Below are positions 43,460 to 63,380 of a stretch of DNA of 64,000 bases, piece by piece. Below the pieces are notes generated by a model that was not told the DNA's origin, made no database searches, and worked only from the letters and a program-made list of their open reading frames with translations. The DNA comes from Candidatus Cryptobacteroides avicola (lineage in GTDB: Bacteria; Bacteroidota; Bacteroidia; Bacteroidales; UBA932): contig JADILV010000021.1 in assembly GCA_017695115.1 (NCBI GenBank), forward strand, positions 62,001-126,000. Reading direction: 5' to 3'. Made by a program: the position numbers and the translations under genes. The first letter of the stretch is position 1. Each line of letters begins with the position of its first letter.

Positions 43460-43525
43460 ATGAACAAAGAACATATCGGTAAATGTTTTAAAGCACTAAT
43501 TACTAATAAACTAAAGTTCCAATGA
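43460..43525 (+). CDS. Possible 21-residue leader peptide overlapping the susC start
   Basis: ATG at 43460 opens a frame encoding MNKEHIGKCFKALITNKLKF and one more residue, closing with TGA at 43523-43525. The TGA overlaps the susC ATG (ATGA). A GGAGG lies 2 bases before the ATG, and the predicted transcription start is at about the same place, so the peptide would be leaderless or nearly so. It could couple translation to susC. Too short for the ORF track; evidence is positional only, and no family is recognised. Confidence 0.35.
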   Translation: MNKEHIGKCFKALITNKLKFQ

Positions 43526-46500
43526 GAAAAACTTGCTTGATTTTAGCGTGTGTTTTCTCTTTCGGTCTGCTTGGGGGGGGGTATGATATACGCTTGAATG
43601 CCACCGAACTGCAGGCGACACAGGAAGAGAGAGTCATCACGGGTGTCGTGACTGACACCGGCGGGGAGCCTGTTATCGGCGCATCAATTCTCCAGACTGG
43701 GACACTTAATGGTGTCATCACAGATTTAGACGGAGCCTTTACCATTACGGTACCGGACGGTGTTTCGCTTACGGTATCATGTATAGGGTATGAGGACTAT
43801 TCTTTTGTTCTTGACAGAAGAGACAGGTATGAAATCATTCTGAACACATCATCAGAATTTCTGGATGAGGTCGTAGTCGTAGGTATGGATAACCGCCAGA
43901 CGAGACGGTCCATCACCGGTGCGATTTCCACCATCGATACAAAGGATCTGGTGCAGAGCCCTGTGGCCAACATTTCCAATGCTCTTGCCGGCAAGCTTCC
44001 TGGTCTGATGACGGTCCAGTCTTCTGGAGAACCTGGAGCGGATGCTTCTACCTTGTATATCAGAGGTGTAGGAACATACGGTACAACAGCTCCGCTGGTG
44101 GTGATCGACGGACTTCCTCGAGACAAGGCGGACTTCGATATGCTCGATGCCAACGAGATCGAGTCCATCACCATCCTGAAAGACGCCTCTTCATCTTCTC
44201 TGTACGGTATACAGGGAGCGAACGGTGTCGTCGTGGTGACTACCAGACGAGGTGGCGGAAACACCAAGCCAAAAATCTCCTTCACCATACAGCAGGCTCT
44301 TCAGCAGCCGATGAGGCTTCCTGAAACATTGAGTTCATATGAACAGGCTATATATAACAGGACGGTGGATTTCAATGACGGACAGCCAATGAGATATACT
44401 GATGAAGTGCTTGAAATCATAAAGACGAATGCTGATCCGTATCTTTATCCGAATACGAACTGGTTCGATGTAGTGCTGAAGGACCATTCATGGCAGCAGC
44501 AGTACAATGTGAATATCTCTGGAAGTGCCGGCAAGGATAATAGAGTGACATATTTTGTTTCAGGTAGTTATATCAATCAAGGTACTCTCCTGAACCATGA
44601 AGATGTCTTCCAGTCCAATTTTGGAGTCCGTTCGAAATATGACAGGTACAATTTCCGCTCAAATATTGATATCAAGGCCACCAAGATGCTGGACATCAGG
44701 TTTGACCTTGCTGGAAGGTTCGAGACAAGGATAGGTCCGAGTACAAGTTTCTCTAATGTATTCAATATAATTACAACTAGATCACCGAGTTCTCAGGCTA
44801 TTTTCAATCCTGACGGTACATTGGCTGCAGGAAGTAACCTTGAGATACCTTATCAGAACAACCCTTACGGAGTCATTACAGAGAGCGGTTACTACAAGAA
44901 TATCACCAATGTAATGTACGGAACCATCTCGGCCCGTCATGCTCTCGACTTCATAACCAAGGGTCTCAGTATACAGGCGTTTTTCAGTTTTGAAAGCAAC
45001 AGCCAGCTCAACCGTTCATGGAGCCGTGAATTCGAACAGTACTGGTATCGTGGACTTGACCAGAACAACCAGCCTGTATATCAGGACTATACGACCGATG
45101 GGCAGTTGACATCAAGTACATGGCGATCAGTAGACCAGTATACATACTATGATGTCCGTCTCAACTATGACAGGGCATTCGGAGACCACAAGGTGACAGC
45201 ACAGCTTCTCGGAAACCGTACCCTCAGGAATCTTACAGCGTCCGAGTACATGTATGCATACCAGGGTCTCAGTGCGAGGGCTACCTATAATTATGCCGAC
45301 AAGTATTTCCTCGAGTTCAATCTCGGTTACAACGGTTCAGAGAACTTTCCTCCGGGTCGCCGTTATGGACTGTTCCCTTCTTTTTCTGCCGGCTGGGTGC
45401 TCAGCGAGGAGCCGTGGCTTAATATGCCTGATGCTGTCAAGATCTTAAAACTGAGAGGTTCATACGGAGTAGTCGGAAATGACCAGATAGGCGGAGAACG
45501 TTTCCTTTATCTGTCAGATTTCGGTCCTGGCGGTGGATGGTCAGGTATATTTACCGGAGGATATTATTTCGGAACCACTAATGGTGGTACAGTGACCAAC
45601 GGAGGATATAATGAGACAAGAGTCGGCAATATGTACGTGACATGGGAAAAAGCCAAAAAGACCAATGTCGGTTTTGACCTTTCTCTGTTCAGGAACAACG
45701 CCGTCAACTTTACTCTGGACTATTTCTATGAGATGCGTGACAACATCCTTACCGAGGCGGGCCGTGTGCCTGACTATGTGGGAATCGAAAATGTCGCTCC
45801 CCGCAACTCCGGAAAAGTCCGCAACCAGGGTCTCGAGGGAGAGTTGAACCTGAACTTCCAGTTCGGCAATGACTTCTCGATGTTCGCGAACATCCAGGCT
45901 ACCTGGGCGAAAAACAAGGTCCTTGAAAATGACCAGCCTACTCCTGCTTTTGAATATCAGGATCTGAGGGGATATGAAATTGGGTATGACCTTGGTTATC
46001 ATGCCATCGGCTTATTTGAAAGTTATGAAGAAATCGAAAACAGTCCTACTCAGAATTTCGGTCCTGTCATTCCTGGCGATATAAAATATCAGGATGTGAA
46101 TGAAGATGGCGAGATCGACCCGTCTGACCGTATACCTATCAAGTGCTATTCTGTACCGACACTCACAGGTGGCTTCTCTATAGGATTCAATTATAAAGGT
46201 TTTGACTTCAGCGTGATGTTCAGTGGTGCGATCGGAGGTACTGCAAGACTGTTCCCATATCAGAGCAGTATTGTCAACCTCAAACGTTGGACTCCTGAAA
46301 ATCATAATGCAATCCTTCCTGTAGCGCATACTACTGCAAACAATACGGTATTGTCTGATCAGAACCTTATGAAGACTGATTATCTGAAGCTCAGAAATGT
46401 AGAGATCGGGTATACTTTCCCTACGAGGTGGTTGTCAAAGATCCGTATTTCAAGTGCACGACTGTATCTGAATGCACAGAATGTGGCGGTTTGGGATAAG

Positions 46501-46599
46501 ATGTGGCTTAAAGACCGCGACCCGGAATCTGCTGGATCTGGAACTTTGCCTTATCCGCTTCAGAGGATTTTCAATATCGGACTTCGCTTTGACATATAA
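43522..46599 (+). CDS. SusC/RagA-family TonB-linked outer-membrane protein with a poly-G tract
   Basis: A 1025-residue SusC-type transporter of the large locus. Signal-peptide region MRKTCLILACVFSFGLLGGG, where the three glycines are encoded by nine consecutive G. Then the carboxypeptidase-like domain (VITGVVTDTGGEPVIGASIL, residues ~38-110), the junction FLDEVVVVGMDNRQTRRS, the plug (NALAGKLPGLMTVQSSGEPGADASTLYIRG, IESITILKDASSSSLYGIQGANG) and the barrel ending LQRIFNIGLRFDI. It works with the SusD protein that starts 18 bp downstream. Promoter -7 box at 43444. A one-base slip in the G run would stop translation within a few codons. Confidence 0.95.
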   Translation: MRKTCLILACVFSFGLLGGGYDIRLNATELQATQEERVITGVVTDTGGEPVIGASILQTGTLNGVITDLDGAFTITVPDGVSLTVSCIGYEDYSFVLDRRDRYEIILNTSSEFLDEVVVVGMDNRQTRRSITGAISTIDTKDLVQSPVANISNALAGKLPGLMTVQSSGEPGADASTLYIRGVGTYGTTAPLVVIDGLPRDKADFDMLDANEIESITILKDASSSSLYGIQGANGVVVVTTRRGGGNTKPKISFTIQQALQQPMRLPETLSSYEQAIYNRTVDFNDGQPMRYTDEVLEIIKTNADPYLYPNTNWFDVVLKDHSWQQQYNVNISGSAGKDNRVTYFVSGSYINQGTLLNHEDVFQSNFGVRSKYDRYNFRSNIDIKATKMLDIRFDLAGRFETRIGPSTSFSNVFNIITTRSPSSQAIFNPDGTLAAGSNLEIPYQNNPYGVITESGYYKNITNVMYGTISARHALDFITKGLSIQAFFSFESNSQLNRSWSREFEQYWYRGLDQNNQPVYQDYTTDGQLTSSTWRSVDQYTYYDVRLNYDRAFGDHKVTAQLLGNRTLRNLTASEYMYAYQGLSARATYNYADKYFLEFNLGYNGSENFPPGRRYGLFPSFSAGWVLSEEPWLNMPDAVKILKLRGSYGVVGNDQIGGERFLYLSDFGPGGGWSGIFTGGYYFGTTNGGTVTNGGYNETRVGNMYVTWEKAKKTNVGFDLSLFRNNAVNFTLDYFYEMRDNILTEAGRVPDYVGIENVAPRNSGKVRNQGLEGELNLNFQFGNDFSMFANIQATWAKNKVLENDQPTPAFEYQDLRGYEIGYDLGYHAIGLFESYEEIENSPTQNFGPVIPGDIKYQDVNEDGEIDPSDRIPIKCYSVPTLTGGFSIGFNYKGFDFSVMFSGAIGGTARLFPYQSSIVNLKRWTPENHNAILPVAHTTANNTVLSDQNLMKTDYLKLRNVEIGYTFPTRWLSKIRISSARLYLNAQNVAVWDKMWLKDRDPESAGSGTLPYPLQRIFNIGLRFDI
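43573..43581 (+). repeat. Poly-G tract (9 G) in the susC signal-peptide region
   Basis: Nine G in frame encode GGG. With 8 G the frame reads GGG GGG GGT ATG ATA TAC GCT TGA; with 10 G it reads GGG GGG GGG GTA TGA. Both give an early stop. Homopolymer of this length in a coding region is a classic slippage site. Confidence 0.85.
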
Positions 46600-46617
46600 T
46601 TAAAAGTAAAGGATAAA

Positions 46618-48309
46618 ATGAAAAGGATATATATACTGGCAACAATTCTGCCTGCCGTGGTGTCGGTGGTCTCGTGTTCAGACTTCCTTGAGAGGGCACC
46701 GGGAGACAACATGACTGAGCAGGAACTCTTCTCTAAAATAGAGACTGCAGAAGCATATCTTGATAATGTTTACACGTATTTGCCAGATTTCCAGTATAAT
46801 ACTGAAGATCTGAGTGGCAGGTATAAACTTGGGGATGCTACTGATGAAGGAGGATTTCAGCAGGCTTCCGGGTATACACAGTGCCCGTTCGACATTAACC
46901 TTGGCAGCTGGAACTCGGAAACAATGCCTATGCAGCGAAACTGGTCTGATTACTATGGGTGTATAAGGCGCTGCAACATGCTGATAAAGAACTATGACCT
47001 CATTCCTGAAGAAATGACAACAGGAGCTGCGACCAACAGGAAGGAGCGTATCCTAGGTGAAGCGTACGGATTACGAGGATATTATTATTTTCTTCTGTTC
47101 AAGCAGTGGGGAGGTGTTCCTATCATTACATCTGTTCTCGACCCTGGAGACGAGTCCCAGCTCAATGGCATCAAAAGAGCCTCGGCAGAAGAAACTCTTC
47201 AGCGAGTTCTTGATGATATGGATGAGGCGATCAAGCATCTTCCTGCAAAGCATAATGACGCCAATTTCGGACGGTTCACTTCTCTGATAGCGACTGTCGT
47301 AAAGTCTCAGGTGAAACTCTATTGGGCAAGCAAGTACTGGAACAGGGATAATGATAAAGCCCGCTGGTCGGAAGCTGTTGATGCTTGTCGTGAAGCATAT
47401 AATATGGCACTTCAGAACGGACATGTCCTGGCCCGTACCTACAGATCTCTTTTTAATGAGACAGGTCTTCAGAGTGAGGTTATATGGACAAAGAATTCAC
47501 CATACTATTATGAATGTTACTGGTGGGACTTTTATGCTATGCCTCTCGGCTATGGCGCATTCAATGTGGACGGTCCACTTCAGGAGTTGGTGGATGATTT
47601 TGAAATGAAAGAATCGGGAGAAATACCTGTCCTTGGATATACTGCTGACAATCAGCCTATTCTTAATGAAAAGGCCTATGATTATGATCCGGCACATCCA
47701 TGGGAAGGTAGAGAGGACAGGTTCTATTCATGCATCCTTTACCATGGAGCCATTTTACAGGACAGACCTATCGATATTTCTGCCAGTGGCAAGGATAATA
47801 TCAATATAGGTTCGATCATACGTACCAATTATTTTACCAATAAATATCTGGATCCGGATCATAATCTGGTTACAAACCAGACCTGGACATACAGGAGGTT
47901 TGCAAGTATACGTACAGCTGAACTGTATCTTAACTATGCAGAAGCGCTGAATGAACTTGACGGTCCTACACAGGCAGTTTATCAGCTTGTAAATGATATA
48001 AGGCGTAGAGCCGATCAGCCAGATCTTCCAGAAGGACTGTCACAGGAACAGATGCGTGAGAAGATTTATCATGAAAGGAGAATAGAACTCTGCTTCGAGA
48101 ATCACCGTTTCTGGGATGTTCGCAGATGGATGATTGCTGAGGATGTTGACAATGGTCCGGTACATAGAGTTATGGTAGGTGACGATGGCACTATTACCTA
48201 TCCTATATTCCAGAACAGGGTGTTCGATCCGAGCAAGCATTATCTGTTCCCTATACCTCAGCGTGAAATAGACAAGAACAACGCTCTGGAACAGAATCCT
48301 GGATGGTGA
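46618..48309 (+). CDS. SusD/RagB-like nutrient-binding lipoprotein
   Basis: A 563-residue surface lipoprotein (RIYILATILPAVVSVVSC, lipobox Cys 20, then SDFLERAPGDNMTEQELFS). The SusD fold is shown by the N-terminal helix pattern (IETAEAYLDNVYTYLPDFQ), the TPR-like GEAYGLRGYYYFLLFKQWGGVP and the C-terminal ERRIELCFENHRFWDVRRWMIA. It forms the lid and ligand binder for the SusC 18 bp upstream. Base composition is visibly more AT-rich than in the flanking ABC/kinase operon, as are the two genes that follow. Normal length for the family. Confidence 0.95.
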   Translation: MKRIYILATILPAVVSVVSCSDFLERAPGDNMTEQELFSKIETAEAYLDNVYTYLPDFQYNTEDLSGRYKLGDATDEGGFQQASGYTQCPFDINLGSWNSETMPMQRNWSDYYGCIRRCNMLIKNYDLIPEEMTTGAATNRKERILGEAYGLRGYYYFLLFKQWGGVPIITSVLDPGDESQLNGIKRASAEETLQRVLDDMDEAIKHLPAKHNDANFGRFTSLIATVVKSQVKLYWASKYWNRDNDKARWSEAVDACREAYNMALQNGHVLARTYRSLFNETGLQSEVIWTKNSPYYYECYWWDFYAMPLGYGAFNVDGPLQELVDDFEMKESGEIPVLGYTADNQPILNEKAYDYDPAHPWEGREDRFYSCILYHGAILQDRPIDISASGKDNINIGSIIRTNYFTNKYLDPDHNLVTNQTWTYRRFASIRTAELYLNYAEALNELDGPTQAVYQLVNDIRRRADQPDLPEGLSQEQMREKIYHERRIELCFENHRFWDVRRWMIAEDVDNGPVHRVMVGDDGTITYPIFQNRVFDPSKHYLFPIPQREIDKNNALEQNPGW

Positions 48310-48356
48310 TTGTGGAATTATGAACCGTATTAATAACACTTTAAATTTAAATCATT

Positions 48357-49811
48357 ATGAAAAAATCATTTTTTATGCTGGGGATTTCAGCTCTTGTTGC
48401 CGGGACTATGTTCACGGCATGCAAAGAGAATCCTTCGGGACCTGAAACAGTGATTCCCACAGTAAGTATTTCTGCTGATGCGAGTTTTGCTTCTGACAAC
48501 ACCGCTACTCTCACATTGTCTCTTTCTGAGGCTACCACTGAGGATGTCTCAGTTACTCTTGCAGATGCTGATGTTCAGTCCGGAAGTAAAAAGGTATCTG
48601 CTATATATTCAAAGAATGTAACCATTGCTGCTGGAGAAACATCTGCTACAGTCGATGTACAAGCAGATATACTTGGCTTGGAAGAAGGTACTTATCAGGC
48701 TGCTATCCAGATAGCTTCTGCAGAAGGTGCTGAAGTGGCAGAGAATCCTGTTGTGTATATTGCTCTTAACTATGTACAGCAGGCTAGTGTGGATTTATAT
48801 GCAGATAACACTACATTCAGACCAGACGGAACGGCAGCTCTTAGGCTTGTTCTTTCTGAAGCATCTTCTATGGATGTAACTGTGACTCTGGAAGAAGGCG
48901 AAGGTACTACTGCTGATGTGTCATACGAAAAGACTGTGACTATTCCGGCCGGAGAAACAGAAAAAGAAGTTATACTGACAGTCGAGATTCCAGAAAATCT
49001 CGAGCCTGGAACATATCCAGCTGTGATTCAGATCGCGTCTGTGGAAAACGCACTGGCAGGTAATGCAAAAAGTGCGACTATCAATCTTGTATATCCTTTT
49101 ACTGCAAATATTACTGTTGACGGTGTATTTGACGACTGGGATACCGCTCCTGCCTCTGTATGGACTTTGCCGGAAGGTGATGTCAAGTATGGGATGATTA
49201 AAACTTTGAAGCTGGCTGCAAACGGTTCACGTGTGTTCGTCTATTTCGAATTTGACGATCCGTCTAATTATAATTCAAAGACTCCGTATGAAGATAATTC
49301 ACTCCCATTTAATATGTACATAGACACAGATGGAGACCCTACTACAGGAGCTATTGTAACTGCTGTCGATAACGATACATATTATCCTCCTTATGATGCA
49401 GATCATATGGGACTGGAATATTATCTCGAGATCACTCTGCATGATGTCGGAACAAATACTATATCTGATTTCTGGACATATGGTGGTCTGTATAGATATG
49501 ATGGAGATGATGGAGATGCTGTTTTCTCAAAACTTACTCAACTGAAAGCTGGAAGCGACTATGACGGAAGCTCTATTTACGGTTCCGGAGTATATGAGAA
49601 CGGGACGGGACGTGTGGAAGTGCAACTTTCAAGGCAGTTCTTTGAAATGACAGGAAGTAAAGCTAGATTTGCTGTGAAAGTTATGGACCAGTATAACAAT
49701 TGGAAGGCTCTTGGTCTTCTTCCTCAGGGAAATTCAGTTGAAGTTGACGGAGTTACCCAGCACGGACAAGTTGATATGGCTGAAATAACATTACCGGACT
49801 ATGAAGGTTAA
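48357..49811 (+). CDS. Surface glycan-binding lipoprotein with two beta-sandwich repeats and a CBM9/DOMON-like domain
   Basis: A 484-residue lipoprotein (MKKSFFMLGISALVAGTMFTAC, lipobox Cys 22). Two similar ~110-residue repeats follow: SLSEATTEDVSVTL...TIAAGETSATVDV...GTYQAAIQIASAEGA and VLSEASSMDVTVTL...TIPAGETEKEVIL...GTYPAVIQIASVENA, of the BT_3987/DUF1735 or Calx-beta-like type. The C-terminal half (ANITVDGVFDDWDTAPASVW...) looks like a CBM9/DOMON-type binding domain. It sits at the canonical position of a surface glycan-binding protein after SusD (47 bp). Its stop overlaps the next start by 11 bases. No enzymatic motif. Confidence 0.8.
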   Translation: MKKSFFMLGISALVAGTMFTACKENPSGPETVIPTVSISADASFASDNTATLTLSLSEATTEDVSVTLADADVQSGSKKVSAIYSKNVTIAAGETSATVDVQADILGLEEGTYQAAIQIASAEGAEVAENPVVYIALNYVQQASVDLYADNTTFRPDGTAALRLVLSEASSMDVTVTLEEGEGTTADVSYEKTVTIPAGETEKEVILTVEIPENLEPGTYPAVIQIASVENALAGNAKSATINLVYPFTANITVDGVFDDWDTAPASVWTLPEGDVKYGMIKTLKLAANGSRVFVYFEFDDPSNYNSKTPYEDNSLPFNMYIDTDGDPTTGAIVTAVDNDTYYPPYDADHMGLEYYLEITLHDVGTNTISDFWTYGGLYRYDGDDGDAVFSKLTQLKAGSDYDGSSIYGSGVYENGTGRVEVQLSRQFFEMTGSKARFAVKVMDQYNNWKALGLLPQGNSVEVDGVTQHGQVDMAEITLPDYEG

Positions 49812-50850
49812 AGTAAGTTTTGCAGTATTATGTATGTCAGTTCTTCTGCTCGCTTCATGCGGGGCGGGCAGAAGCTCTGATAATGATGCTCCGTTTTTCC
49901 AGATGAGGGGTATCGTGCTGGCTTGGGATGATATCAGTGATCCTGTAACCATAGACTGGCTGTCCATCATGCATGAGAACGGCCTGAATACTATCAGTGT
50001 ATTCGGAAAGGATTACACGAGCGAAGAATATCTTGCTTTCAAGCAGAAATGCATAGACGAAGGGTTTGACTTCGAGTACGAGGAGCATGCCATGTCCTGG
50101 CTGCTGCCCCGTGACCTGTTCGAGACATATCCGGAGTATTTCAGGATGGACAAGAACGGTGTCCGTCAGCCTGACGGCAACGGCTGCCCTTCCAGTGAGG
50201 AAGGCCTGGAGGTGATCATGAGCAATGTGCGTGCATTTGCACAGAAGCATACCCCTACGAACCACAAGTATTATACGTGGCTCTATGACGGAGGTGATAT
50301 CTGCCACTGTGAGAAGTGCAAAGGATACAACGCTTCGGATCAGGGACTCATTTTCGAGAACCATATCATCAAGGCTCTGAGGGAGTATGACCCTGAGGCG
50401 ACACTTGCCCACCTGGCATATTCGAACACAACCCCGGCCCCGAGCGTAGTGAAGCCGGAGGAGGGCATTTTCCTGGAGTTCGCTCCGTTCTATCGCAGAT
50501 GGGACAAGCCTCTTTCAGATAGGGATGCCATCCGTGACGGGGAGTACTGGACTCACGGGGACTATCTGGACATGCTGGAGGCGAACCTGAAGGTTTTCCC
50601 TGCCGAGACAGCCCAGGTACTGGAGTACTGGCTCGATGTATCCCAGCGCAGCGGATGGAAGAAGCCTCAGGTGAAGCTGGACTGGCATAAGGATGTCTAT
50701 CTTGATGACTTGAAGACATATGCAAGTTACGGAATTAAGAATATAACCTGTTATGGAGCCTGGATAGATCCGTATTATGTCAAGACCTATAAGGATCTGA
50801 CATGCGTGACGGATTATTGCCAGGGACTGCTGAACTATAAACCTGAATAA
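49801..50850 (+). CDS. DUF4838-like lipoprotein, putative glycosidase (first copy)
   Basis: A 349-residue lipoprotein (KVKVSFAVLCMSVLLLASC, lipobox). The body has a (beta/alpha)-barrel-like rhythm: VLAWDDISDPVTIDWLSIMHENGLNTISVFG, FDFEYEEHAMSWLLPRDLF, YYTWLYDGGDICHCEKCKGY and LEFAPFYRRWDKPLS, TAQVLEYWLDV and ASYGIKNITCYGA. The CHCEKC cysteine motif after the DGGD acids is the recognisable DUF4838 feature. No activity has been established to my knowledge for the family; acids in EYEEH and DGGD are candidate catalytic residues. It is paralogous to the next gene and overlaps the preceding stop by 11 bases. Confidence 0.7.
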   Translation: MKVKVSFAVLCMSVLLLASCGAGRSSDNDAPFFQMRGIVLAWDDISDPVTIDWLSIMHENGLNTISVFGKDYTSEEYLAFKQKCIDEGFDFEYEEHAMSWLLPRDLFETYPEYFRMDKNGVRQPDGNGCPSSEEGLEVIMSNVRAFAQKHTPTNHKYYTWLYDGGDICHCEKCKGYNASDQGLIFENHIIKALREYDPEATLAHLAYSNTTPAPSVVKPEEGIFLEFAPFYRRWDKPLSDRDAIRDGEYWTHGDYLDMLEANLKVFPAETAQVLEYWLDVSQRSGWKKPQVKLDWHKDVYLDDLKTYASYGIKNITCYGAWIDPYYVKTYKDLTCVTDYCQGLLNYKPE

Positions 50851-50851
50851 A

Positions 50852-51994
50852 ATGATAAGGCGTTTTTTAACTGTTTTGTCGGTGGCATGCTGCCTGACAT
50901 TCTCTTTCTGTTCATGTGACGATACCGGGGATTTTCCTGATGATGACAAAAACACTGAAAAGCCGGCTCCCGGTGAAGGTGAGGATGACCAAAAGGATGA
51001 TGAAGGTACTGATGAGCCTCTCCCAGAAGGAGAACGCTGGTTTAAGACCAGGGGGCTTGTGATGGGATGGACAGATGTGGCCAATTCCTATGTGCTAGAT
51101 TATATACAGATTGCAGAAGACAACGGACTCAATACATTCAGTATCTACGGGGCGGACAGGACTTCTGCTGTATGGAATAACTTTGCGTCAAGATGCAGAG
51201 ATGCAGGTATTGATCTGGAGTTTGAAGAACATATGATGTCATTCCTGCTTCCTCGTGATCTTTTCAGTACGCATCCTGAATATTTCCGTATGAACGAGAA
51301 CGGTGTAAGAGTCAGTGATGCCAACGGTTGTCCGTCATCAGAAGGTGCGCTTGAGGAAGTCAGAAAGAATGCAAAAGTATTGGCTCAAAATTATGCTCCT
51401 ACCAACAACAAGTATTATTTCTGGCTTGATGATGGGGGTGGAGTCTGCCACTGCGAGAGATGTAAAGAGTTAAATGACGCAGATCAGGCATTGATATTTG
51501 AAAATGTGATTATCGAGGCTATCAAGGAAATCAATCCAGATGCCCAGCTTGCGCATCTGTGCTATGCCAACACTCTGGATGCTCCTCGCAAGACAGTGCC
51601 TCACGAGGATATATTCCTGGAGTTCGCTCCATTTTACAGAGACTGGTCTCAACCGTTGTCATCGGTATGGGCTACAGGAAGAACCGGTATTTCTCATAGC
51701 CGGTACCTCAGAGCTCTTAAAGAGAACCTTGATGTTTTCCCAGCAAAGACTGCACAGGTACTGGAGTACTGGATGGACGACTCGCTGTTCAGCGGATGGG
51801 ACCAGTCAAATCTGGTAGAAGTCCCGTGGGATAATAGTATATTCCTTGATGACCTTGACACATACGCATCTTATGGCATTCGTCATATAATGTGTTACTG
51901 TGCCTATGTAGGACCTCAGTATGTACAGAAATTCGGCTATCCTACATTCCTCGAGGAATACGGACAGGGACTGTATAACTATGAGAAGAAATAA
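50852..51994 (+). CDS. DUF4838-like lipoprotein, putative glycosidase (second copy)
   Basis: A 380-residue lipoprotein (MIRRFLTVLSVACCLTFSFCSC) paralogous to the previous gene. It differs by a ~35-residue acidic Asp/Glu/Pro-rich linker (DFPDDDKNTEKPAPGEGEDD) between the lipobox and the barrel, which may hold the domain away from the membrane. Shared landmarks are LEFEEHMMSFLLPRDLF, HPEYFRMNENGVR, NGCPSSE, YYFWLDDGGGVCHCERCKEL, FLEFAPFYRDW and TAQVLEYWMDD. The DGGD of the first copy reads DDGG here. It starts 2 bp after the first copy, so the pair is a tandem duplication with later divergence, including more AT-rich codon choice. Confidence 0.7.
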   Translation: MIRRFLTVLSVACCLTFSFCSCDDTGDFPDDDKNTEKPAPGEGEDDQKDDEGTDEPLPEGERWFKTRGLVMGWTDVANSYVLDYIQIAEDNGLNTFSIYGADRTSAVWNNFASRCRDAGIDLEFEEHMMSFLLPRDLFSTHPEYFRMNENGVRVSDANGCPSSEGALEEVRKNAKVLAQNYAPTNNKYYFWLDDGGGVCHCERCKELNDADQALIFENVIIEAIKEINPDAQLAHLCYANTLDAPRKTVPHEDIFLEFAPFYRDWSQPLSSVWATGRTGISHSRYLRALKENLDVFPAKTAQVLEYWMDDSLFSGWDQSNLVEVPWDNSIFLDDLDTYASYGIRHIMCYCAYVGPQYVQKFGYPTFLEEYGQGLYNYEKK

Positions 51995-55669: not shown

Positions 55670-57073
55670 TTATAGATAAGGTTGATAGAGCCCGGAGCTG
55701 TTTGTGTCATGAAGGTATTGGCTGTATTCCATGAACAGAGTTTCCGTCTTTTCTTCTCCTACCCTTATCCTTGCCTTTGGGTCACTGAAGACTCCCGGGT
55801 ACTGGTAGAAGATGATTTTTTCGAAATTGTCGAACATCTGCAGATCCCCTGTGATCCCCTCGATGTCTCTTGGGTAGAGAGAAGCGTCATCGTTGAAAAG
55901 GAATGCTTCGAGGTCAAACCACAGATGGGCTCCTGACTGGTCGCACAGCTTCTGGAGAGTCATAGCGGCTTCCTTCCCGGTCATGTCTTCTTCCGGCATT
56001 CTGGCGAAGCCGAACGGGCACAGTATGTCCAGATGCTCCAGCAGAGCCGGATATGTGTCCATCCCGTCCTTTATGCCGAATGAGTTGGTCGCAAGCATTA
56101 TGGGCTTCCCCGGGGCGAACTCTCCGCAGAATTCTTTGAACTCCTTGAAGAAAGCTACTATCTCACGCTTTCTCTGAATTCTCATTTCAGGGGTCTTTTC
56201 CCAGTTGTCCAGACTTCCTCCTGATTCTTCAGGGATATAGAACCCGTAGAAAGAGTCATGGTGTCCGTATTTTTCCCATACCTCCCGGGTCACCATCTTG
56301 TGCCATTCCAGCGATTCTGCAGTAAAATCGAACCATGCGAACATCCCGATGCCTGGAAATACATGCATGCCAAGCTTGTCTGCTTCATCCAGTATCGCCT
56401 CTACGGGGTCTGATGCTGTTATTTCCATCCTCCCGCTGTAAAGCTTTGAGTCGTAGTATGCCTTGCCTGCGTAGCTTTCTGCCGTAGTGGCGTGCCTACC
56501 TACGTATTCTTCGTTACGGAAAAGTTCCTGGATGACTATAATGTCCAGTCCCAGGGAATGCATGGAGCGCACCATTGATCTCCAGTCTTCGTCTGTCAGC
56601 TTCCGTATGTCGTCATTCCAATGTTTACCTTCTGTCTCGCTCCAGTGGCAGATTCCTACGAAGGCTCCGCCTGCAGTTCTGGTTGACCTGATGTCGGAAC
56701 GGATGATGCTGACAGGGTTGGTCTTGAGCAGTGTATCTCTCCCTGAAATGACCTTGAGTGATATTCCGTGCTTCCCTTCGAGCCCCTCTGTCTCCAGAAT
56801 ATGCCTTATACATAGAGACCCTCCTGGCTCTACGGCTACAGTTTCCTGGCAGACTTTAGTCTGCACACCGCCATGCTCCATGTATATGGACACGCTGCAG
56901 TTCCTTTCCCTGTGCCCCTTGTTGACTATTCCGGCCCTGACATCCAGGTCGGTACGGTCTGTGACTTCCACCGGAGGTACCACAGACAGATATGTCTCTA
57001 CCTGGTTTTCTTCTATGCTGCCTGAGCAGGATGCGGCACAGAACAGAATGCAGATTGTTTTAAAATGTTTCAT
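55670..57073 (-). CDS. DUF4434 lipoprotein, putative glycosidase (first DUF4434 gene)
   Basis: A 467-residue lipoprotein (HFKTICILFCAASC, lipobox Cys). The N-terminal beta domain (residues ~25-130, ETYLSVVPPVEVTDRTDLDVRAGIVNKG) is followed by a DUF4434 TIM-barrel-type domain: GGAFVGICHWSETEGKHWND, WRSMVRSMHSLGLDIIVIQELF, LGMHVFPGIGMFAWF, FYGFYIPEESGGSLDN, LDILCPFGFARMPEED and HLWFDLEAFLF. The YIPEES motif at the end of a strand is typical of an acid/base glutamate position in clan-A-like barrels, which is inference. The ATG at 57073 is set by the -7 box at 57092. Divergent from the next DUF4434 gene. Confidence 0.78.
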   Translation of the reverse strand: MKHFKTICILFCAASCSGSIEENQVETYLSVVPPVEVTDRTDLDVRAGIVNKGHRERNCSVSIYMEHGGVQTKVCQETVAVEPGGSLCIRHILETEGLEGKHGISLKVISGRDTLLKTNPVSIIRSDIRSTRTAGGAFVGICHWSETEGKHWNDDIRKLTDEDWRSMVRSMHSLGLDIIVIQELFRNEEYVGRHATTAESYAGKAYYDSKLYSGRMEITASDPVEAILDEADKLGMHVFPGIGMFAWFDFTAESLEWHKMVTREVWEKYGHHDSFYGFYIPEESGGSLDNWEKTPEMRIQRKREIVAFFKEFKEFCGEFAPGKPIMLATNSFGIKDGMDTYPALLEHLDILCPFGFARMPEEDMTGKEAAMTLQKLCDQSGAHLWFDLEAFLFNDDASLYPRDIEGITGDLQMFDNFEKIIFYQYPGVFSDPKARIRVGEEKTETLFMEYSQYLHDTNSSGLYQPYL

Positions 57074-57099: not shown

Positions 57100-57182
57100 A
57101 ATAATTATAATAAATATCGATAGATAATTATTGTAAAAATATATTATAAATGAATTTTTAAAAATAAATTTTAGAATATACG

Positions 57183-57212
57183 TTTGTTATTTTATAAAAT
57201 TATTTATATTTG
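57183..57212 (+). promoter_or_regulatory. Promoter of the second DUF4434 gene and epimerase
   Basis: TTTG (57183-57186), 18-bp spacer, TATATTTG (57205-57212). The predicted start of transcription (~57219) makes the ATG at 57222 leaderless, while the ATG at 57234 has a short leader, so 57234 is preferred. Confidence 0.75.
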
Positions 57213-57233
57213 TAATGGCTAATGAGATTAAAT

Positions 57234-58730
57234 ATGAAATTAAAATATGTTCTTCTGTTATTGTTGCTTTTTGCCTGTGTGGAATCTTCTTTTTCTCATA
57301 CCAGACCAGTGAAAGGTACATGGGTGAATCTGTTCTGGCAGGATGAAAGGAACAATTACATGAATCCCCGGTATATGGATATTACCGATCCTCTTCTTTG
57401 GAAGACCAAGATTGAAGAACTGCATGATATGGGGATGGAGTATGTGGTGATAATGGCTGTGGCAAATGAGGAGAGAGCCTGCTACCCGTCCGGATTTATG
57501 GAACCTGCGTATCCTGAAGACAGACAGAGTCCTGTCGAGGCAATAATGGAGGCTGCTGATGAGTGTGGCATGAGTGTTTTCATGAGCTGTGGCTGGGCGA
57601 AGAACCAGCTGGACAATCTGAAGGACCCCGATGTGAAAGAGACACAGTTGAGAATAATGGAGGAGACTGCACGGCTGTTTTCGGGCCACAAGTCGTTTTA
57701 TGGGTGGTATCTGCCTGTGGAGGACAGCTTTGAGCCTGTCCTTTCCGATCATGCGGTGCAAGCTGTCAATGCTCTTGCCGCCAGAGCAAGAGAACTGACT
57801 CCTGGCAAGATGGTCATGATATCGCCGTACGGACTGTGCAATGCTGACTATGCCTCCCCGAAATTCGCGGAGCAGATCCGCAGACTGAAAGTGGATATAA
57901 TAGCTTATCAGGATGAGGTGGGATGTGTCAGGGAACCTATGCCTATGAGGCGGATGAAGGAACATTTCAAGATTCTGGGTGACATACACGAGGAGACCGG
58001 GATAAGGTTCTGGGCTAATGTCGAGTCTTTTACATGGGACCGGGAAACTAACAGCTGGTATTCTTCTCTTGTCCCTGCCGCATTCGGAAGGTATCTGTCC
58101 CAGCTGGTCGGTGTCTCGCAGGCAGGTGTCGACAATGTTCTGAGCTTTTCGATATACGGGATTTATGACAGGCCCGGATCCCCTTTCCCTCTAGGGCAGC
58201 CGGTGTGGTCCAATGTTGCATACAATGACTACATGGACTGGCTGTCTGGAAAAGGACGGTGGCCTCTTCTGGAAGCTACTTTCTATGACAGTGTGGCTAA
58301 CGGTGCCCAAGGAAAGACTGTGTCTGCTTCTGGGGCTTCCTGTCCTTCTTTGCTCACAGACGGCGATTTCGGGTATGAAGACTGTGGAGCTTCTCAGTGG
58401 TGCCGCTTTGACGGAGGTAAGATGGAGGCTGTGATTGATCTGGAGAATATCGCCGAAATATGTTCTTTGGCTGTGCGTTTCCTTAATTATGCTCATGCTG
58501 CTGTCTCTATTCCTCGTATTGTGGACTTTTATGTGTCAGATACCGGCGAATGTTTTGAGAAAGTGAGTACAGTGGTTATGGACAATACTCCTAATGTTTT
58601 GCATGACTGCTGGATAGATCTGGCTTCAACGGGACCCGTGTCAGCGAGGGGCAGGTATGTCAAGGTGGTGGCGGAATGCGAGGATGGTGATATTTGCTGT
58701 GACGAAATTTTCATCAACCCTGTATTTTAG
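57234..58730 (+). CDS. DUF4434 protein with discoidin-like C terminus (second DUF4434 gene)
   Basis: A 498-residue exported protein (MKLKYVLLLLLLFACVESSFS). A DUF4434 barrel occupies residues ~25-340: VKGTWVNLFWQDERNNYMNPRYM, WKTKIEELHDMGMEYVVIMAV, AADECGMSVFMSCGW, FYGWYLPVEDSFEP, KVDIIAYQDEVGC and RFWANVESFTWD. The same strand-end acids occur as in the first DUF4434 gene (YLPVEDS). The C-terminal ~130 residues (SCPSLLTDGDFGYEDCGASQWCRFDGGKMEAVIDLENI...) look like a discoidin/F5-8-type carbohydrate-binding module. It is co-transcribed with the epimerase gene 34 bp downstream. Confidence 0.78.
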   Translation: MKLKYVLLLLLLFACVESSFSHTRPVKGTWVNLFWQDERNNYMNPRYMDITDPLLWKTKIEELHDMGMEYVVIMAVANEERACYPSGFMEPAYPEDRQSPVEAIMEAADECGMSVFMSCGWAKNQLDNLKDPDVKETQLRIMEETARLFSGHKSFYGWYLPVEDSFEPVLSDHAVQAVNALAARARELTPGKMVMISPYGLCNADYASPKFAEQIRRLKVDIIAYQDEVGCVREPMPMRRMKEHFKILGDIHEETGIRFWANVESFTWDRETNSWYSSLVPAAFGRYLSQLVGVSQAGVDNVLSFSIYGIYDRPGSPFPLGQPVWSNVAYNDYMDWLSGKGRWPLLEATFYDSVANGAQGKTVSASGASCPSLLTDGDFGYEDCGASQWCRFDGGKMEAVIDLENIAEICSLAVRFLNYAHAAVSIPRIVDFYVSDTGECFEKVSTVVMDNTPNVLHDCWIDLASTGPVSARGRYVKVVAECEDGDICCDEIFINPVF

Positions 58731-58764
58731 ACAAGATGAAGTGAAATCTAATGAACTGAACAAT

Positions 58765-59940
58765 ATGGATAATCTGGATTTTGCAGCTTTGGCTCTACAG
58801 TATAAGGCCGAACTGCTTGATAACTGTCTCCCGTTCTGGCTTGGGAATTCTCAGGATACTGAATATGGAGGTTATTTCAGCTGTCTGAACAGGGACGGAA
58901 GTGTATATGATACAGACAAATTCATCTGGCTGCAGGGTAGGGAAGTGTGGCTGTTCGCCATGCTGTACAACAATGTGGAGAAGAAGCAGGAGTGGCTCGA
59001 CTGTGCATTGCAGGGCGGGGAGTTCCTCAGGAAGTACGGGCATGACGGGAATTATAATTTCTATTTCTCCCTGAACCGAGAAGGGCAGCCTCTGATCCAG
59101 CCGTACAATATCTTTTCAAACACTTTCGCCTGCATGGGGTTTGCCCAGCTTGCAAAGGCTACCGGGAAAGCAGAGTATGCGGATATAGCGAAAAAGACTT
59201 TTGACAGGATTTTGGCAAGAAAGGACAACCCTAAAGGTATATGGGAGAAATCCTATCCCGGAACCAGACCGATGAAGGGGTTCTCTCTGCCGATGATAAT
59301 CTGCAATATGGCTCTCGAGATAGAAGATATCATAGAAGACAAGAGTCTGCTTGACAGGACGATCGAAACATGCCTGCATGAAGTGCTCGAAGTCTTTTAT
59401 AAGGATGAGGTGGGGATGATGGTCGAGAATGTCTCGTCGGTAGATGGCAGCCTCATTGATTGCTTTGAGGGAAGGGTGATCAATCCTGGCCATAACCTTG
59501 AGGCGATGTGGTTTCTGATGGACCTCGGCGTGCGTTTGAAAGACAGATCTCTGATAGACAGGGCAGTGAAGATAGCTCTTAATGTGATAGAATATGGCTG
59601 GGACAAGGAATACGGTGGGATATTCTATTTCATGGACCGCAAGGGTTATCCTCAGCAGCAGCTCGAGTGGGACCAGAAGCTCTGGTGGGTGCATATCGAG
59701 TCATCTATCGCGATGCTGAAGGCTTATAGCCTTACCGGGAACAAGGAATGCCTGTCGTGGTTTAAAAAGCTGCACGAGTATATGTGGACTCATTTCAAGG
59801 ACAGCGAATTTCCGGAATGGTTCGGATATCTGAACCGCAGAGGCGAAGTCCTGCTGCCTTTGAAAGGAGGAAAGTGGAAGGGCTGTTTCCATGTCCCGAG
59901 AGGACTGTATCAGATATGGAAGCTGCTTGAGCAGTGCTGA
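58765..59940 (+). CDS. N-acylglucosamine 2-epimerase (AGE/renin-binding-protein family)
   Basis: A 391-residue (alpha/alpha)6-barrel epimerase without a signal peptide, so cytoplasmic. Key family segments: KFIWLQGREVWLFAMLYNN, INPGHNLEAMWFLMD, KLWWVHIESSIAMLKAY and the C-terminal KWKGCFHVPRGLYQI. The FHVPR ending is the GlcNAc 2-epimerase/renin-binding-protein type. Cellobiose 2-epimerases of the same superfamily end differently, so interconversion of GlcNAc and ManNAc (or a close relative) is favoured but not proven. The ORF-track start lies inside the DUF4434 gene; the ATG at 58765 is used. It is the only cytosolic enzyme of the locus. Confidence 0.82.
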   Translation: MDNLDFAALALQYKAELLDNCLPFWLGNSQDTEYGGYFSCLNRDGSVYDTDKFIWLQGREVWLFAMLYNNVEKKQEWLDCALQGGEFLRKYGHDGNYNFYFSLNREGQPLIQPYNIFSNTFACMGFAQLAKATGKAEYADIAKKTFDRILARKDNPKGIWEKSYPGTRPMKGFSLPMIICNMALEIEDIIEDKSLLDRTIETCLHEVLEVFYKDEVGMMVENVSSVDGSLIDCFEGRVINPGHNLEAMWFLMDLGVRLKDRSLIDRAVKIALNVIEYGWDKEYGGIFYFMDRKGYPQQQLEWDQKLWWVHIESSIAMLKAYSLTGNKECLSWFKKLHEYMWTHFKDSEFPEWFGYLNRRGEVLLPLKGGKWKGCFHVPRGLYQIWKLLEQC

Positions 59941-59950
59941 TGTGTAAAGA

Positions 59951-59995
59951 CAGTAAACAAAGAGGGTGGCCCGGAGCCACCCTCTTTGTTTACTG
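59951..59995. terminator. Bidirectional terminator between the epimerase and GH3 genes
   Basis: CAGTAAACAAAGAGGGTGGC-ccgga-GCCACCCTCTTTGTTTACTG is a perfect 20-bp stem between convergent genes, with A-rich and T-rich outer parts serving both directions. The stem core GAGGGTGGC/GCCACCCTC is the same as in the terminators at 13236 and 13422. Confidence 0.9.
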
Positions 59996-60007
59996 CGGTG
60001 ATACGCT

Positions 60008-62272
60008 TCAGTCTAAACGGATTCTGACTTTCTGGTCCTGGACCATGATGTAGTAATCCCCTTTTTCCAGGAAACGGTTCCCGTCTGGCCCGATGAAGCT
60101 GAAGTCCCTTTCAGGGTCTATGTGGAACGTGAATGTCCTGCTTTCTCCTTTCCGTATCATTTTCTTCTCGAAATGTCTGAGCTCTTTGACGGGCCTGGTG
60201 ATGCTGCAGTAAGGGTCGCAGATGTACCAGAGCACTGTTTCTTTGCCGTCCATGCCCCCAGTGTTGGAGACTGTTATTTCGGCAGTCAGGGTCTGTCCTT
60301 CTTTTATCGTAAGCACATTGTCTCCTGTATCTGTATACCTGTCTGATCCATAGATACATACTTTGAGAGGACTGTAATCGAAGTCTGTATAGCTCAGTCC
60401 GTAGCCGAACTCATACATCGGTGTGCTCTGTATGTCCTGATACCGTCCGGCCCGTTCTGTCCTGGCGGCATTGCGCTGATTATAGTAGATAGGAATCTGT
60501 CCTGTGGTATATGGAAATGTTACTGCCAGCTTTCCGGAAGGGTTATATCTGCCTGTAAGTATCCCTGCTACTGCAGGGCCTGTCATTACTCCAGGTTGCC
60601 AGATTTCCATGACCGCATCTGCCATAGGGGCTATTCTTGTGAGGTCGAGAGGTCGTCCGCTGGACAGCAGAACAGCTATGGGTTTCCCTGTCTTGTCGAG
60701 CTCTTCCAGGAGTTTTTCCTGTATCTGGGGAAGTGCGATGGTGGAGCGGGACGCGTTTTCTCCGCTCCATGCCCGTTTTTCTCCGAGGCACAGGACGACA
60801 ATGTCGGCTGCCTCGGCAGCAGCCGTCGCTTCATGGAATCCAGACGTGTCTTCCCCGTCGAAGTCACATCCCATGGCATAGATAATCTCCGATTCGTCTC
60901 CGAGTTCTGCTTTCAGTCCGTCATAGATGCTGATGACATCTTCTTCTATTCCGCGACCTTCCCATGAGCCGAGCATGTCAAACCTGTTCTTTACGACAGG
61001 GCCGATCAGTGCTATTCTGGCTCCTTTTTTAAGGGGAAGGACATCGGATTCGTTTTTAAGCAGTACCATGGATTCCTGTGCGAGCTGCTCTGCGACTTCC
61101 TTGTATTCCGGCAGAAGGAACCGTTCGCTCTGCGGCTTTTCTACTGTGTACGGCTCCTCGAAAAGTCCGAGTCTGAATTTCAGCCTGAGCACACGTCTTA
61201 CTGCGTCATCAAGCCGTTCTTCGGATACTTTGCCTTCCTTGACCAGATCCGCCAGATTCTCTACATAGCAGTTGTCTACCATGTCCATGTCCAGACCGGC
61301 GTTGAATGCGTACATTGTCGCCTGTTTCCTGTCCGGGGCCATACCTTGCGTGACAAGCTGGTCCACTGCATTCCAGTCGCTTACTACGAAACCTGAGTGC
61401 GCCCATTTCTCTTTCAGGATTTCCGTCATCGTATAATGCTTGGCCGATGCCGGTATTCCGCTGATGGCATTGAAAGAGCTCATGAGAGTCGCCGCTCCGG
61501 CTTTGACCCCTGCCTCGAAAGAGGGCAGATATGTGTCCCATAATGTCTGTCTCGATATTTCTGTGGCTACATAGTCTCGTCCTGCTTCTGAGGCTCCGTA
61601 TCCCACATAGTGTTTAAGGCATGCCGCTATGCTGCCATCGTCCGCAAGGTCGTCTCCCTGATACGCTTTTACCGAAACGGCGCTCATAGTCGAACAGAGG
61701 TAAGGGTCTTCCCCGAACCCTTCTGCAATCCTGCCCCATCTCCCGTCTCTGGCTATGTCTACCATCGGTGAGAATGTCCAGTCTATTCCTGCCGATATGG
61801 CTTCCCTGGCTGCCACGCGGCAGGCCTGTGCCACGAGGTCCGTGTTCCATGAAGCCGCTTGTCCGAGGGGGATGGGGAATACTGTCCTGAACCCGTGTAT
61901 CACATCGAAACCGAACAGTATGGGTATCCCCAGCCTGGTGTTCTCAACCGCTTCTTTCTGCATGGCATTGCGCAGCTGTGGCTCGACTCCGACAAATATC
62001 AGCGAACCTTCTTTTCCGGAAAATTTCTTGACAGTTTCTCCTATGTTGTTGATGTTGTCGTTGTTCCCGAGTACATACTGGCTGAGCTGCAGGACTTTCT
62101 CCTCAAGAGTCATTCTCGACAGCAGGTCTCCTACTCTGTCGTCTATGGGTGCGTCCGGATTTTTATAGATTATTTCCTTTTTGTCTGTACTTCCTTCTCT
62201 TGCTATGGCCGTCCATGTGTGTGGAGTCAGAGTCAGGATGAGACCTGTGAGAATAAAAAGATTCAATTTCAT
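60008..62272 (-). CDS. bglX: Glycoside hydrolase family 3 beta-glucosidase-type enzyme (BglX-like)
   Basis: A 754-residue exported GH3 enzyme (MKLNLFILTGLILTLTPHTWTA). N-terminal barrel: ILFGFDVIHGFRTVFPIPLGQAASW, FSPMVDIARDGRWGR and CLKHYVGYGASEAGRDY. The nucleophile aspartate is in SGFVVSDWNAVDQL. The GH3 C-terminal alpha/beta domain starts near residue 390 (IALIGPVVKNRFDMLGSW) with the acid/base region AWSGENASRST, and an FnIII-like domain ends the protein. The VSDW and KHYVGYG motifs fit BglX-type beta-glucosidases rather than NagZ hexosaminidases. The ATG at 62272 replaces a TTG. The only classical glycoside hydrolase of the locus. Confidence 0.93.
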   Translation of the reverse strand: MKLNLFILTGLILTLTPHTWTAIAREGSTDKKEIIYKNPDAPIDDRVGDLLSRMTLEEKVLQLSQYVLGNNDNINNIGETVKKFSGKEGSLIFVGVEPQLRNAMQKEAVENTRLGIPILFGFDVIHGFRTVFPIPLGQAASWNTDLVAQACRVAAREAISAGIDWTFSPMVDIARDGRWGRIAEGFGEDPYLCSTMSAVSVKAYQGDDLADDGSIAACLKHYVGYGASEAGRDYVATEISRQTLWDTYLPSFEAGVKAGAATLMSSFNAISGIPASAKHYTMTEILKEKWAHSGFVVSDWNAVDQLVTQGMAPDRKQATMYAFNAGLDMDMVDNCYVENLADLVKEGKVSEERLDDAVRRVLRLKFRLGLFEEPYTVEKPQSERFLLPEYKEVAEQLAQESMVLLKNESDVLPLKKGARIALIGPVVKNRFDMLGSWEGRGIEEDVISIYDGLKAELGDESEIIYAMGCDFDGEDTSGFHEATAAAEAADIVVLCLGEKRAWSGENASRSTIALPQIQEKLLEELDKTGKPIAVLLSSGRPLDLTRIAPMADAVMEIWQPGVMTGPAVAGILTGRYNPSGKLAVTFPYTTGQIPIYYNQRNAARTERAGRYQDIQSTPMYEFGYGLSYTDFDYSPLKVCIYGSDRYTDTGDNVLTIKEGQTLTAEITVSNTGGMDGKETVLWYICDPYCSITRPVKELRHFEKKMIRKGESRTFTFHIDPERDFSFIGPDGNRFLEKGDYYIMVQDQKVRIRLD

Positions 62273-62291
62273 CTGATGAAAATTCAAATAA

Positions 62292-63380
62292 TTATAGATT
62301 GAAGTATTCCTTGTATCTGTCGAAAAGATGTCCGGCCTGCAGATAGGCTGACTGCGGGCTCATGAAATGCGAAAATTCGAAGGTGATAGCCTTGTCATAT
62401 CCGCACCGTGCCGCCGCTTCCAGTTTCATCCTCAGCTTGTCGAACTTGATAGGCAGGAAATTGATAGGCATATCACGGTCAAAAGTTTCGGCATTGGTCC
62501 AGCACTGCATCCCGTATTTGTCTGCAAGTTTTTTATTTACAGTAAAGAATGCGTCAAGTTCATCGTAGTCGATGTGTCCGTCCTGGAATGCGCACGCGTC
62601 TACGACATCGTGTATCCCGTCGAATATCTCGTTCCATTCTTTTTCGTGCTGGGCTACCGATACTGCCTGGTCGTTGGTCATTTTGCCTGTGCCCATTATG
62701 GCTTTCTTGCCGTCAATCCACGGGGAAATGAATGTCGGCAGCCCGCCTGAAACATCTTTGCACTGTTTTCCCAGCGCATGGAAGGCGTCTATAGCCCCTT
62801 TGGTCTTGCGGCTGATTTCTCCGCTGATATACCATCCTCCGAAACTGTCGTATTTTTCCCCGTACATTCTCCAGACTTCATCGATGACATATTTGTTGTC
62901 TTCAATCTCGTAAGACAGGTCTCCGGTATCCCAGTATTTTCCGGAATCATACAGCCCGAACCAGAACTTCATCCCGTATTTCTGCGCCAGTCTCAGGAAC
63001 ATGTCTATCAGGTCGACAGAAGGCATGTAACATCCTTTCTTCAAGAGGTACGGAGAAGGGTAGGTGATGAATTTGCGGTATCCGGAACGTATCACTATCA
63101 CCGTATCTATCCCTATGGATTTCATGTATCTGAAATCGGCGTCCCATTCCTTTTCGCCCCAGTTCTGGTGCGGGATGTCATGGGAAATCTCGTCAAGGAA
63201 AGTCCCGGTAATCTTGAGCCCCTGCGCTTTCGGGACGATAAGGCCTCCGGTGCTGTCTTGGTTTGCCGCGCGGCTCCCGCCTGCCGGGGAACATGAGCTG
63301 ACTGACAATATGCCCGGCGCAGCTATGGCTGAAGCTGCTGCGGCTGCTGCTGTTTTCAGGAATGATCTGCGGTCTGTCAT
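62292..63380 (-). CDS. DUF4434 protein with Tat-type signal (third DUF4434 gene)
   Basis: A 362-residue exported protein. The N terminus MTDRRSFLKTAAAAAASAIAAP is a twin-arginine-like signal (DRRSFLK) and also contains a lipobox-like VSSC. The DUF4434 barrel follows: LKITGTFLDEISHDIPHQNWG, YMKSIGIDTVIVIRSGY, RLAQKYGMKFWFGLYDSG, FGGWYISGEISRKT, VDACAFQDGHIDY and MQCWTNAETFDRD. The GGWYISGEI motif marks the same strand-end acid as in the other two copies. The ATG at 63380 is chosen over the longer ORF. It lies 19 bp upstream of the GH3 gene (first gene of that two-gene operon), and divergent from the next susC. Confidence 0.8.
   Translation of the reverse strand: MTDRRSFLKTAAAAAASAIAAPGILSVSSCSPAGGSRAANQDSTGGLIVPKAQGLKITGTFLDEISHDIPHQNWGEKEWDADFRYMKSIGIDTVIVIRSGYRKFITYPSPYLLKKGCYMPSVDLIDMFLRLAQKYGMKFWFGLYDSGKYWDTGDLSYEIEDNKYVIDEVWRMYGEKYDSFGGWYISGEISRKTKGAIDAFHALGKQCKDVSGGLPTFISPWIDGKKAIMGTGKMTNDQAVSVAQHEKEWNEIFDGIHDVVDACAFQDGHIDYDELDAFFTVNKKLADKYGMQCWTNAETFDRDMPINFLPIKFDKLRMKLEAAARCGYDKAITFEFSHFMSPQSAYLQAGHLFDRYKEYFNL

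Follow-up and report, generated by a model that had tools for sequence, protein, structure and literature searches.

The closest described counterparts of the locus analysed here are the BT_0435/BT0438-BT0443 region of Bacteroides thetaiotaomicron and the Bacteroidales sialic-acid (nan) loci that carry an AGE-type epimerase. BT_0435, for which a crystal structure exists (4h41), is close in gene numbering to the SusC/SusD pair BT0439/BT0440 (PMC10434189), and lies three gene numbers from BT0438, a tested alpha-N-acetylglucosaminidase of glycoside hydrolase (GH) family 89 (PMC8225759). Our subject is a stretch of 64,000 nucleotides from Candidatus Cryptobacteroides avicola (contig JADILV010000021.1, positions 62,001 to 126,000; hereafter the window), in which a first-pass annotation had delimited, at 43522-63380, a polysaccharide utilisation locus (PUL) built mainly from barrel proteins of two uncharacterised families, DUF4838 and DUF4434; a ROK-family regulator and a sugar porter of the major facilitator superfamily (MFS) lie upstream of, and outside, that span. 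The window encodes a DUF4434 protein (DUF4434c) that shares 84-89% identity with BT_0435 over the Foldseek alignment, whereas the published annotation of the B. thetaiotaomicron region lists GH89 (BT0438) and DUF4855 (BT0442) where our locus has DUF4838, CBM9 and DUF5107. With the nan loci it shares an N-acyl-D-glucosamine 2-epimerase (AGE), ROK, SusC/SusD and MFS-type genes, and one relative (L167) contains in a single row NanA, AGE, an FAD oxidoreductase, two DUF4434, MFS, SusC/SusD, DUF5018 and GHL10. Unlike the nan loci, the window locus has no lyase, and the AGE-NanA-sialidase locus of this genome is separate, on another contig (C83). We read the system as a Bacteroidales PUL for an N-acetylhexosamine-containing glycan, operating by the mechanism proposed below, with a probability of about 0.5.

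Judged by its gene content, the locus is a well-conserved PUL. The susC-like and susD-like genes stand side by side and are linked to carbohydrate-active enzymes with export signals, namely a GH3 protein and the putative barrel enzymes with their lipobox or signal motifs. From 5' to 3', the ROK and MFS genes on the minus strand precede a plus-strand run of SusC, SusD, a surface glycan-binding protein (SGBP), DUF4838a, DUF4838b, a CBM9-like protein and a DUF5107 protein with tetratricopeptide repeats (DUF5107-TPR), separated by short intergenic gaps or overlapping; downstream lie DUF4434a (-), DUF4434b (+), AGE (+), GH3 (-) and DUF4434c (-). Gene starts were set later than the longest open reading frame for AGE (58765), the CBM9-like gene (~51981) and DUF4434c (63380). 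The SusC-type TonB-dependent outer-membrane transporter (43522-46599, +) scores 877 bits against TIGR04056, above the cut-off, and the SusD-type surface glycan-binding lipoprotein (46618-48309, +; lipobox VVSC) matches PF07980 (E 2e-50) and PF14322. The SGBP, a lipoprotein with Ig-like repeats (48357-49811, +; lipobox FTAC), gives weak Pfam matches to LapA and DUF4625, and its position in syntenic loci is invariably SusD-SGBP-DUF4838. The genome has three DUF4434 genes, all of them here, and three DUF4838 genes, two of them here; because of this gathering, and because other genomes show the same gene order, the locus is more than a chance assembly.

The open reading frame and Pfam profile check of the window recovered every gene named in the first-pass annotation: SusC/SusD, the surface binder, two DUF4838, three DUF4434, DUF5107-TPR, the CBM9 lipoprotein (a label that comes via relatives) and a GH3 as the sole classical glycosidase. 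Its proposal of the locus as a candidate for a new biological system is not supported, since PULs are a known kind of system and BT_0435, a close homologue of DUF4434c, already has its structure solved. What is new is that sequence comparison and structure models allow catalytic residues and a substrate class to be proposed for two uncharacterised families inside a known type of system.

The three DUF4434 proteins all exceed the PF14488 gathering score of 30, with 116 bits for DUF4434a (55670-57073, -; E 4e-33), a lipoprotein with lipobox AASC, 139 bits for DUF4434b (57222-58730, +; E 3e-40), which is exported and has a C-terminal extension, and 300 bits for DUF4434c (62292-63380, -; E 4e-89), the BT_0435 homologue (4h41, E 3.5e-203), which has a Tat-type signal. 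In the model of DUF4434c (predicted local distance difference test, pLDDT, 80), E188 follows strand beta-4 (180-185) and E298 follows beta-7 (292-297), the positions at which the TIM barrels of clan GH-A (4/7) retaining glycosidases carry their glutamates, and the pair is kept in 22/22 aligned proteins, among them DUF4434a and DUF4434b, whose identity is 20-24%. Next after 4h41, the Foldseek neighbours of the model are the GH-A families GH53, GH39, GH5, GH10, GH1 and GH2, together with Cwp19. The conserved glutamate pair and these structural neighbours support DUF4434 as a predicted retaining glycosidase with a GH-A-like barrel. In contrast to this likeness, there is no sequence match to GH53, GH39, GH5 or GH10 (11-14% identity), and in the open-access literature searched we found neither a tested activity assigned to DUF4434 nor a paper naming the family. 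The name given to 4h41 by its depositors, 'putative alpha-L-fucosidase', finds no support in the profile or in the neighbours of most loci, GH29-type genes adjoining DUF4434c in two loci only (L131, L140).

DUF4838a (49801-50850, +; E 1.5e-17) and its paralogue DUF4838b (50852-51994, +; E 1.5e-14), both lipoproteins, exceed the PF16126 gathering score of 26.6 with 64 and 54 bits, respectively. Each matches only about 185 of the 325 profile positions (~28-215), which makes them a divergent subfamily, here called the short form; hhalign joins it to canonical DUF4838 at 98%. The AlphaFold2 (AF2) model of DUF4838a (pLDDT 93.9) retrieved GH20 enzymes at the first five Foldseek ranks against the PDB (9fyn at 3e-8, 4pys, 9fym, 8bal and HexA), and a phage beta-N-acetylhexosaminidase at the top of a viral library. 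Alignment of profiles with hhalign linked GH20 to short-form (83%) and to canonical DUF4838 (80%), the controls remaining low (DUF4838-GH84 1.1%, DUF4838-DUF4434 1.5%, DUF4434-GH20 0.1%, GH84-GH20 2.2%). With the GH20 beta-N-acetylhexosaminidases and lacto-N-biosidases DUF4838 further shares the barrel fold, a Cys motif that follows beta-4 and a conserved His that pairs, in the alignment, with the His of the GH20 DxPGH motif; it differs from them by an additional invariant set of four cysteines and an identity of about 11%, and no GH20 catalytic-domain profile matched DUF4838a or DUF4838b above the cut-off, PF16126 being their sole match. We consider DUF4838 a probable distant relative of GH20, given the hhalign values, the low controls and the top Foldseek ranks, but with TM-scores near 0.5. 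No sequence relative was found in the PDB with either a single-sequence or a 78-row profile search, and the open-access literature names DUF4838 once, in passing. A relationship to GH84, which the D-D motif had suggested, and the treatment of DUF4838 and DUF4434 as one family were both discarded on the hhalign controls given above.

Throughout the 78 short-form sequences H96, R115, N127, W160, D163, E186, H204, R232, D279 and D303 are unchanged, as are C129, C168, C170 and C173, and the model places the invariant D163 at beta-4 of the barrel. At position 162, 58 of the 78 have Asp, DUF4838b (motif WLDDGGG) among them, but DUF4838a has Tyr, and therefore the two paralogues may differ in activity. 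In canonical DUF4838 these cysteines are likewise kept, and an Asp stands within a motif of Q-N-D type, whose N-D is aligned on the D-E dyad of GH20 in our reading of the printed hhalign alignment; in the short-form alignment the register is shifted by three, which leaves residue equivalence to the dyad uncertain. The four invariant cysteines may form a metal site. Structure prediction against glycoside hydrolase clans, proposed as a check in the first-pass annotation, thus led from the DUF4838a model to GH20 and from the DUF4434c model to clan GH-A families, and its suggestion of five barrel enzymes is supported, as a probable one, by the glutamate pair of DUF4434 and by the GH20-like barrel and invariant beta-4 Asp of DUF4838.

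The CBM9-like lipoprotein (~51981-52631, +; lipobox AAAC) has no Pfam match of its own and owes its label to 32% identity with part of a DUF4838 fusion protein (L015) that matches PF06452. CBM9-DUF4838 fusions are encoded by L013, L015 and some 20 more loci; the L015 protein has the reverse order, DUF4838-CBM9, with its CBM9 part above the Pfam cut-off. These fusions in other genomes show DUF4838 and the CBM9-like lipoprotein to be a working unit. A scan with the DUF4838 alignment gave 74 loci, and in 11 of them AGE lies directly upstream of the fusion gene; in L013 the two genes overlap by four bases. In many rumen Bacteroidales the AGE-fusion pair belongs to a conserved housekeeping island with YicC-like and other genes, with no SusC/SusD beside it (L042, L049, L053, L071, L074, L075 and similar). 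The exported DUF5107-TPR protein (52660-55572, +) matches PF17128 (E 4e-102) and has a structure relative, 5cd6 (E 4e-31); the open-access literature names DUF5107 once, in passing.

With regard to the substrate, one indication comes from the cytoplasmic AGE (58765-59940, +), which exceeds the curated N-acyl-D-glucosamine 2-epimerase cut-off (equivalog NF052547, 677 vs 600 bits), scores 62 bits against cellobiose epimerases, and is matched throughout by cyanobacterial AGE structures (6f04, 2gz6, E 1e-152). Relatives of the DUF4434-AGE part of the locus have neighbours of N-acetylhexosamine type, namely GH20, a NagB/PIG-L protein, a NAGPA-type phosphodiester glycosidase and DUF5009. From the curated AGE match, these GH20 and NagB-type neighbours and the GH89 enzyme BT0438 near BT_0435, we infer a glycan with N-acetylhexosamine as substrate. 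Host mucosal glycans, sialoglycans, bacterial cell-wall glycans or glycans containing N-acetylmannosamine (ManNAc) are all possible; peptidoglycan glycan strands, hinted at by GHL10 neighbours and by Cwp19 as the fourth distinct Foldseek rank of DUF4434c, were set aside as the specific substrate and kept as one option within N-acetylhexosamine glycans only. The GH3 (60008-62272, -; PF00933, PF01915, Fn3-like) has beta-glucosidases as its best PDB matches, and argues for some neutral residues in the glycan too.

The MFS porter of the sugar porter (SP) family (41893-43344, -; PF00083 E 6e-108; TIGR00879 353 bits vs a 238-bit cut-off) adjoins DUF4434c in many relatives. The ROK-family transcriptional regulator (40622-41851, -; PF00480 E 1e-50) has an N-terminal helix-turn-helix (HTH_24) and NagC as best NCBIfam match, at 183 bits. 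These two proteins and the epimerase are genuine partners of the system in that they recur as neighbours, but the 'complete uptake path' ascribed to them was too strong a claim, as the locus showed no gene for a sugar kinase, deacetylase or deaminase, with no search for such genes made elsewhere. Elsewhere in the genome, a likely sialic-acid locus on contig C83 (L122) groups a DHDPS/NanA-type lyase, AGE, a BNR sialidase, SusC/SusD and ROK, and with this separate locus present the window AGE is not the sole nan epimerase; its assignment to sialic-acid catabolism was therefore dropped, a sialoglycan nevertheless being kept among the possible substrates. A second SusC/SusD pair begins right after the window locus (63536-64000 of the window; L120, contig C84 125001-145000), followed by a distant AGE, 33% identical to that of the window, and a BNR-type sialidase, so that two epimerases and a sialidase fall within about 12 kb.

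Comparison with other genomes revealed that the locus is made of two parts with separate distributions. The SusC/SusD gene order recurs in L016-L019, L022-L025 and others. In three near relatives (L016-L018) ROK-MFS-DUF4434c stands directly before the SusC of the PUL; in two of them SusC is followed by SusD-SGBP-DUF4838a-DUF4838b-CBM9-DUF5107 in order, L018 having a rearranged or incompletely called version of this block, and AGE, GH3 or DUF4434a/b come next, variously, with AGE directly after DUF5107 in L017. In L019, L022 and L023 the block from SusC to DUF5107 is present but the DUF4434/AGE part is missing, and in L025 AGE-MFS lies immediately upstream of SusC. DUF4434c orthologues were found in 30/150 genomes of the family and 20/396 of the phylum, short DUF4838 in 5/150 of the family. 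Within six genes of DUF4434c, the 39 loci examined contain AGE (23), SusC (21), an FAD-dependent oxidoreductase (15), MFS (13), GHL10 (13), ROK (12), DUF5018 (12) and GH20 (5), AGE being at most two genes away in 19. A close AGE was present in 21 of the 30 genomes with DUF4434c vs 4 of the 120 without it (Fisher 6e-15, shared ancestry ignored). Short-DUF4838 genomes have a close DUF5107 in four cases of five (p 4e-6) and DUF4434c in two of five (p 0.26, not significant). By these distributions the locus is composite, a SusC-SusD-SGBP-DUF4838-DUF4838-CBM9-DUF5107 unit joined to a ROK-MFS-DUF4434-AGE cassette, two units often found apart. The 74 DUF4838 loci come mostly from metagenome assemblies of herbivore-gut Bacteroidales, with a few from Sphingobacteriaceae, Parapedobacter, Chitinophaga, Verrucomicrobia and Planctomycetes. 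In L020, L021 and L033 a near-identical DUF4838a orthologue (72-75%) is found on its own, surrounded by unrelated genes on the opposite strand, which suggests single-gene transfer. In Parapedobacter and Parabacteroides chinchillae (L059, L070, L062), short DUF4838 lies, by eye, near Gfo/Idh/MocA-like oxidoreductases and/or DUF1080-like proteins, neighbours that could hint at oxidised (3-keto) sugars.

Several observations weigh against an N-acetylhexosamine PUL that works as one system. The Foldseek TM-scores of DUF4838a are modest (0.47-0.55); the canonical GH20 Asp-Glu dyad is absent from the beta-4 end of DUF4838, replaced mostly by D-D and otherwise by Y-D, F-D, W-D or N-D, and position 162, Tyr in DUF4838a, is not conserved in the family. 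The only classical glycosidase resembles beta-glucosidases, no GH20 or GH89 lies within the locus, and ROK falls short of the NagC equivalog cut-off (183 vs 650 bits). An AGE is lacking near DUF4434c and DUF4838 in many of their loci, the co-occurrence of DUF4838 with AGE alone is weak (3/5 genomes, p 0.03), and none of the co-occurrence tests takes shared ancestry into account. An alternative is two independent units with different substrates, a SusC-SusD-SGBP-DUF4838-CBM9-DUF5107 PUL beside a ROK-MFS-DUF4434-AGE cassette. In its favour, 28 of the 30 genomes with DUF4434c lack short DUF4838 and three of the five with short DUF4838 lack DUF4434c, DUF4838a/b genomes sharing DUF5107 instead; in one genome (G042) the DUF4838 PUL is accompanied by GH43-like and hybrid two-component genes, and DUF4434 does not adjoin it. 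We nonetheless hold this alternative to be rather improbable, as the cassette genes directly before this same SusC in L016-L018 and L025, and AGE directly after DUF5107 in L017, tie the two together, and AGE is independently linked to both parts.

A similar, slightly lower standing is given to a PUL for neutral glucosides or mannosides, in which GH3 would serve as the beta-glucosidase, the barrels would cut neutral linkages and AGE would act on glucose- or mannose-type sugars. Besides the GH3, the best NCBIfam scores of the MFS porter (XylE, GlcP), the distant AGE-family members acting on cellobiose or mannose, and GH92 or GH95 near DUF4838 or DUF4434c in some relatives speak for such an unlikely specificity, but the wide margin by which AGE prefers the N-acyl-glucosamine model over cellobiose epimerases, the GH20 neighbours with the published GH89 association, and the DUF4838-GH20 relationship oppose it. 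A non-catalytic role of the DUF4838 and DUF4434 barrels, as scaffolds or glycan-binding proteins, would agree with the lack of any activity report for a member in the open-access literature and with the missing dyad residue of DUF4838a; it is nevertheless very improbable, as polar residues at the strand ends (D163, H96 and R115 in DUF4838, E188 and E298 in DUF4434) are invariant, and binding-only proteins rarely keep such sets across this range.

For a PUL directed at an N-acetylhexosamine-containing glycan we propose the following scheme, which draws on what can be read from the sequence (gene content, conserved order, domain fusion, co-occurrence, fold class and conserved residues) to suggest catalysis by DUF4838 and DUF4434, the cell location of each enzyme, the role of DUF5107-TPR, the direction in which AGE acts and the substrate. 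SusD, the SGBP and the CBM9-like lipoprotein would hold the glycan at the cell surface, where the two DUF4838 lipoproteins would cleave at or near N-acetylhexosamine residues. Oligosaccharides would be taken up by SusC and trimmed in the periplasm by the exported DUF4434 proteins, as GH-A-type retaining enzymes using E188/E298, and by GH3, while DUF5107-TPR may take part in some step of the processing. The MFS porter would import the released sugar and the ROK protein would sense it, whereas AGE would interconvert ManNAc and N-acetylglucosamine (GlcNAc), leading into amino-sugar catabolism.

A bolder possibility, which we put forward tentatively and think doubtful as a whole, is that DUF4838 constitutes an undescribed GH20-lineage glycosidase family, in which an Asp-Asp or X-Asp site replaces Asp-Glu and a four-Cys, probably metal-binding, element adjoins the active site, that DUF4434 is a new GH-A family, and that the two mark out a PUL class directed at N-acetylhexosamine glycans, perhaps those of bacterial cell surfaces that contain ManNAc. 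If true, this would explain the in vivo substrate of the BT0435-BT0443 region of B. thetaiotaomicron. Should the general reading be right, DUF4838 and DUF4434 would gain concrete hypotheses on catalysis, down to named residues, and on the class of substrate, and would be tied to an operon region of B. thetaiotaomicron for which the in vivo inducer has been reported as unknown. BT_0435, with its solved structure and its origin in a laboratory strain, makes the question directly testable.

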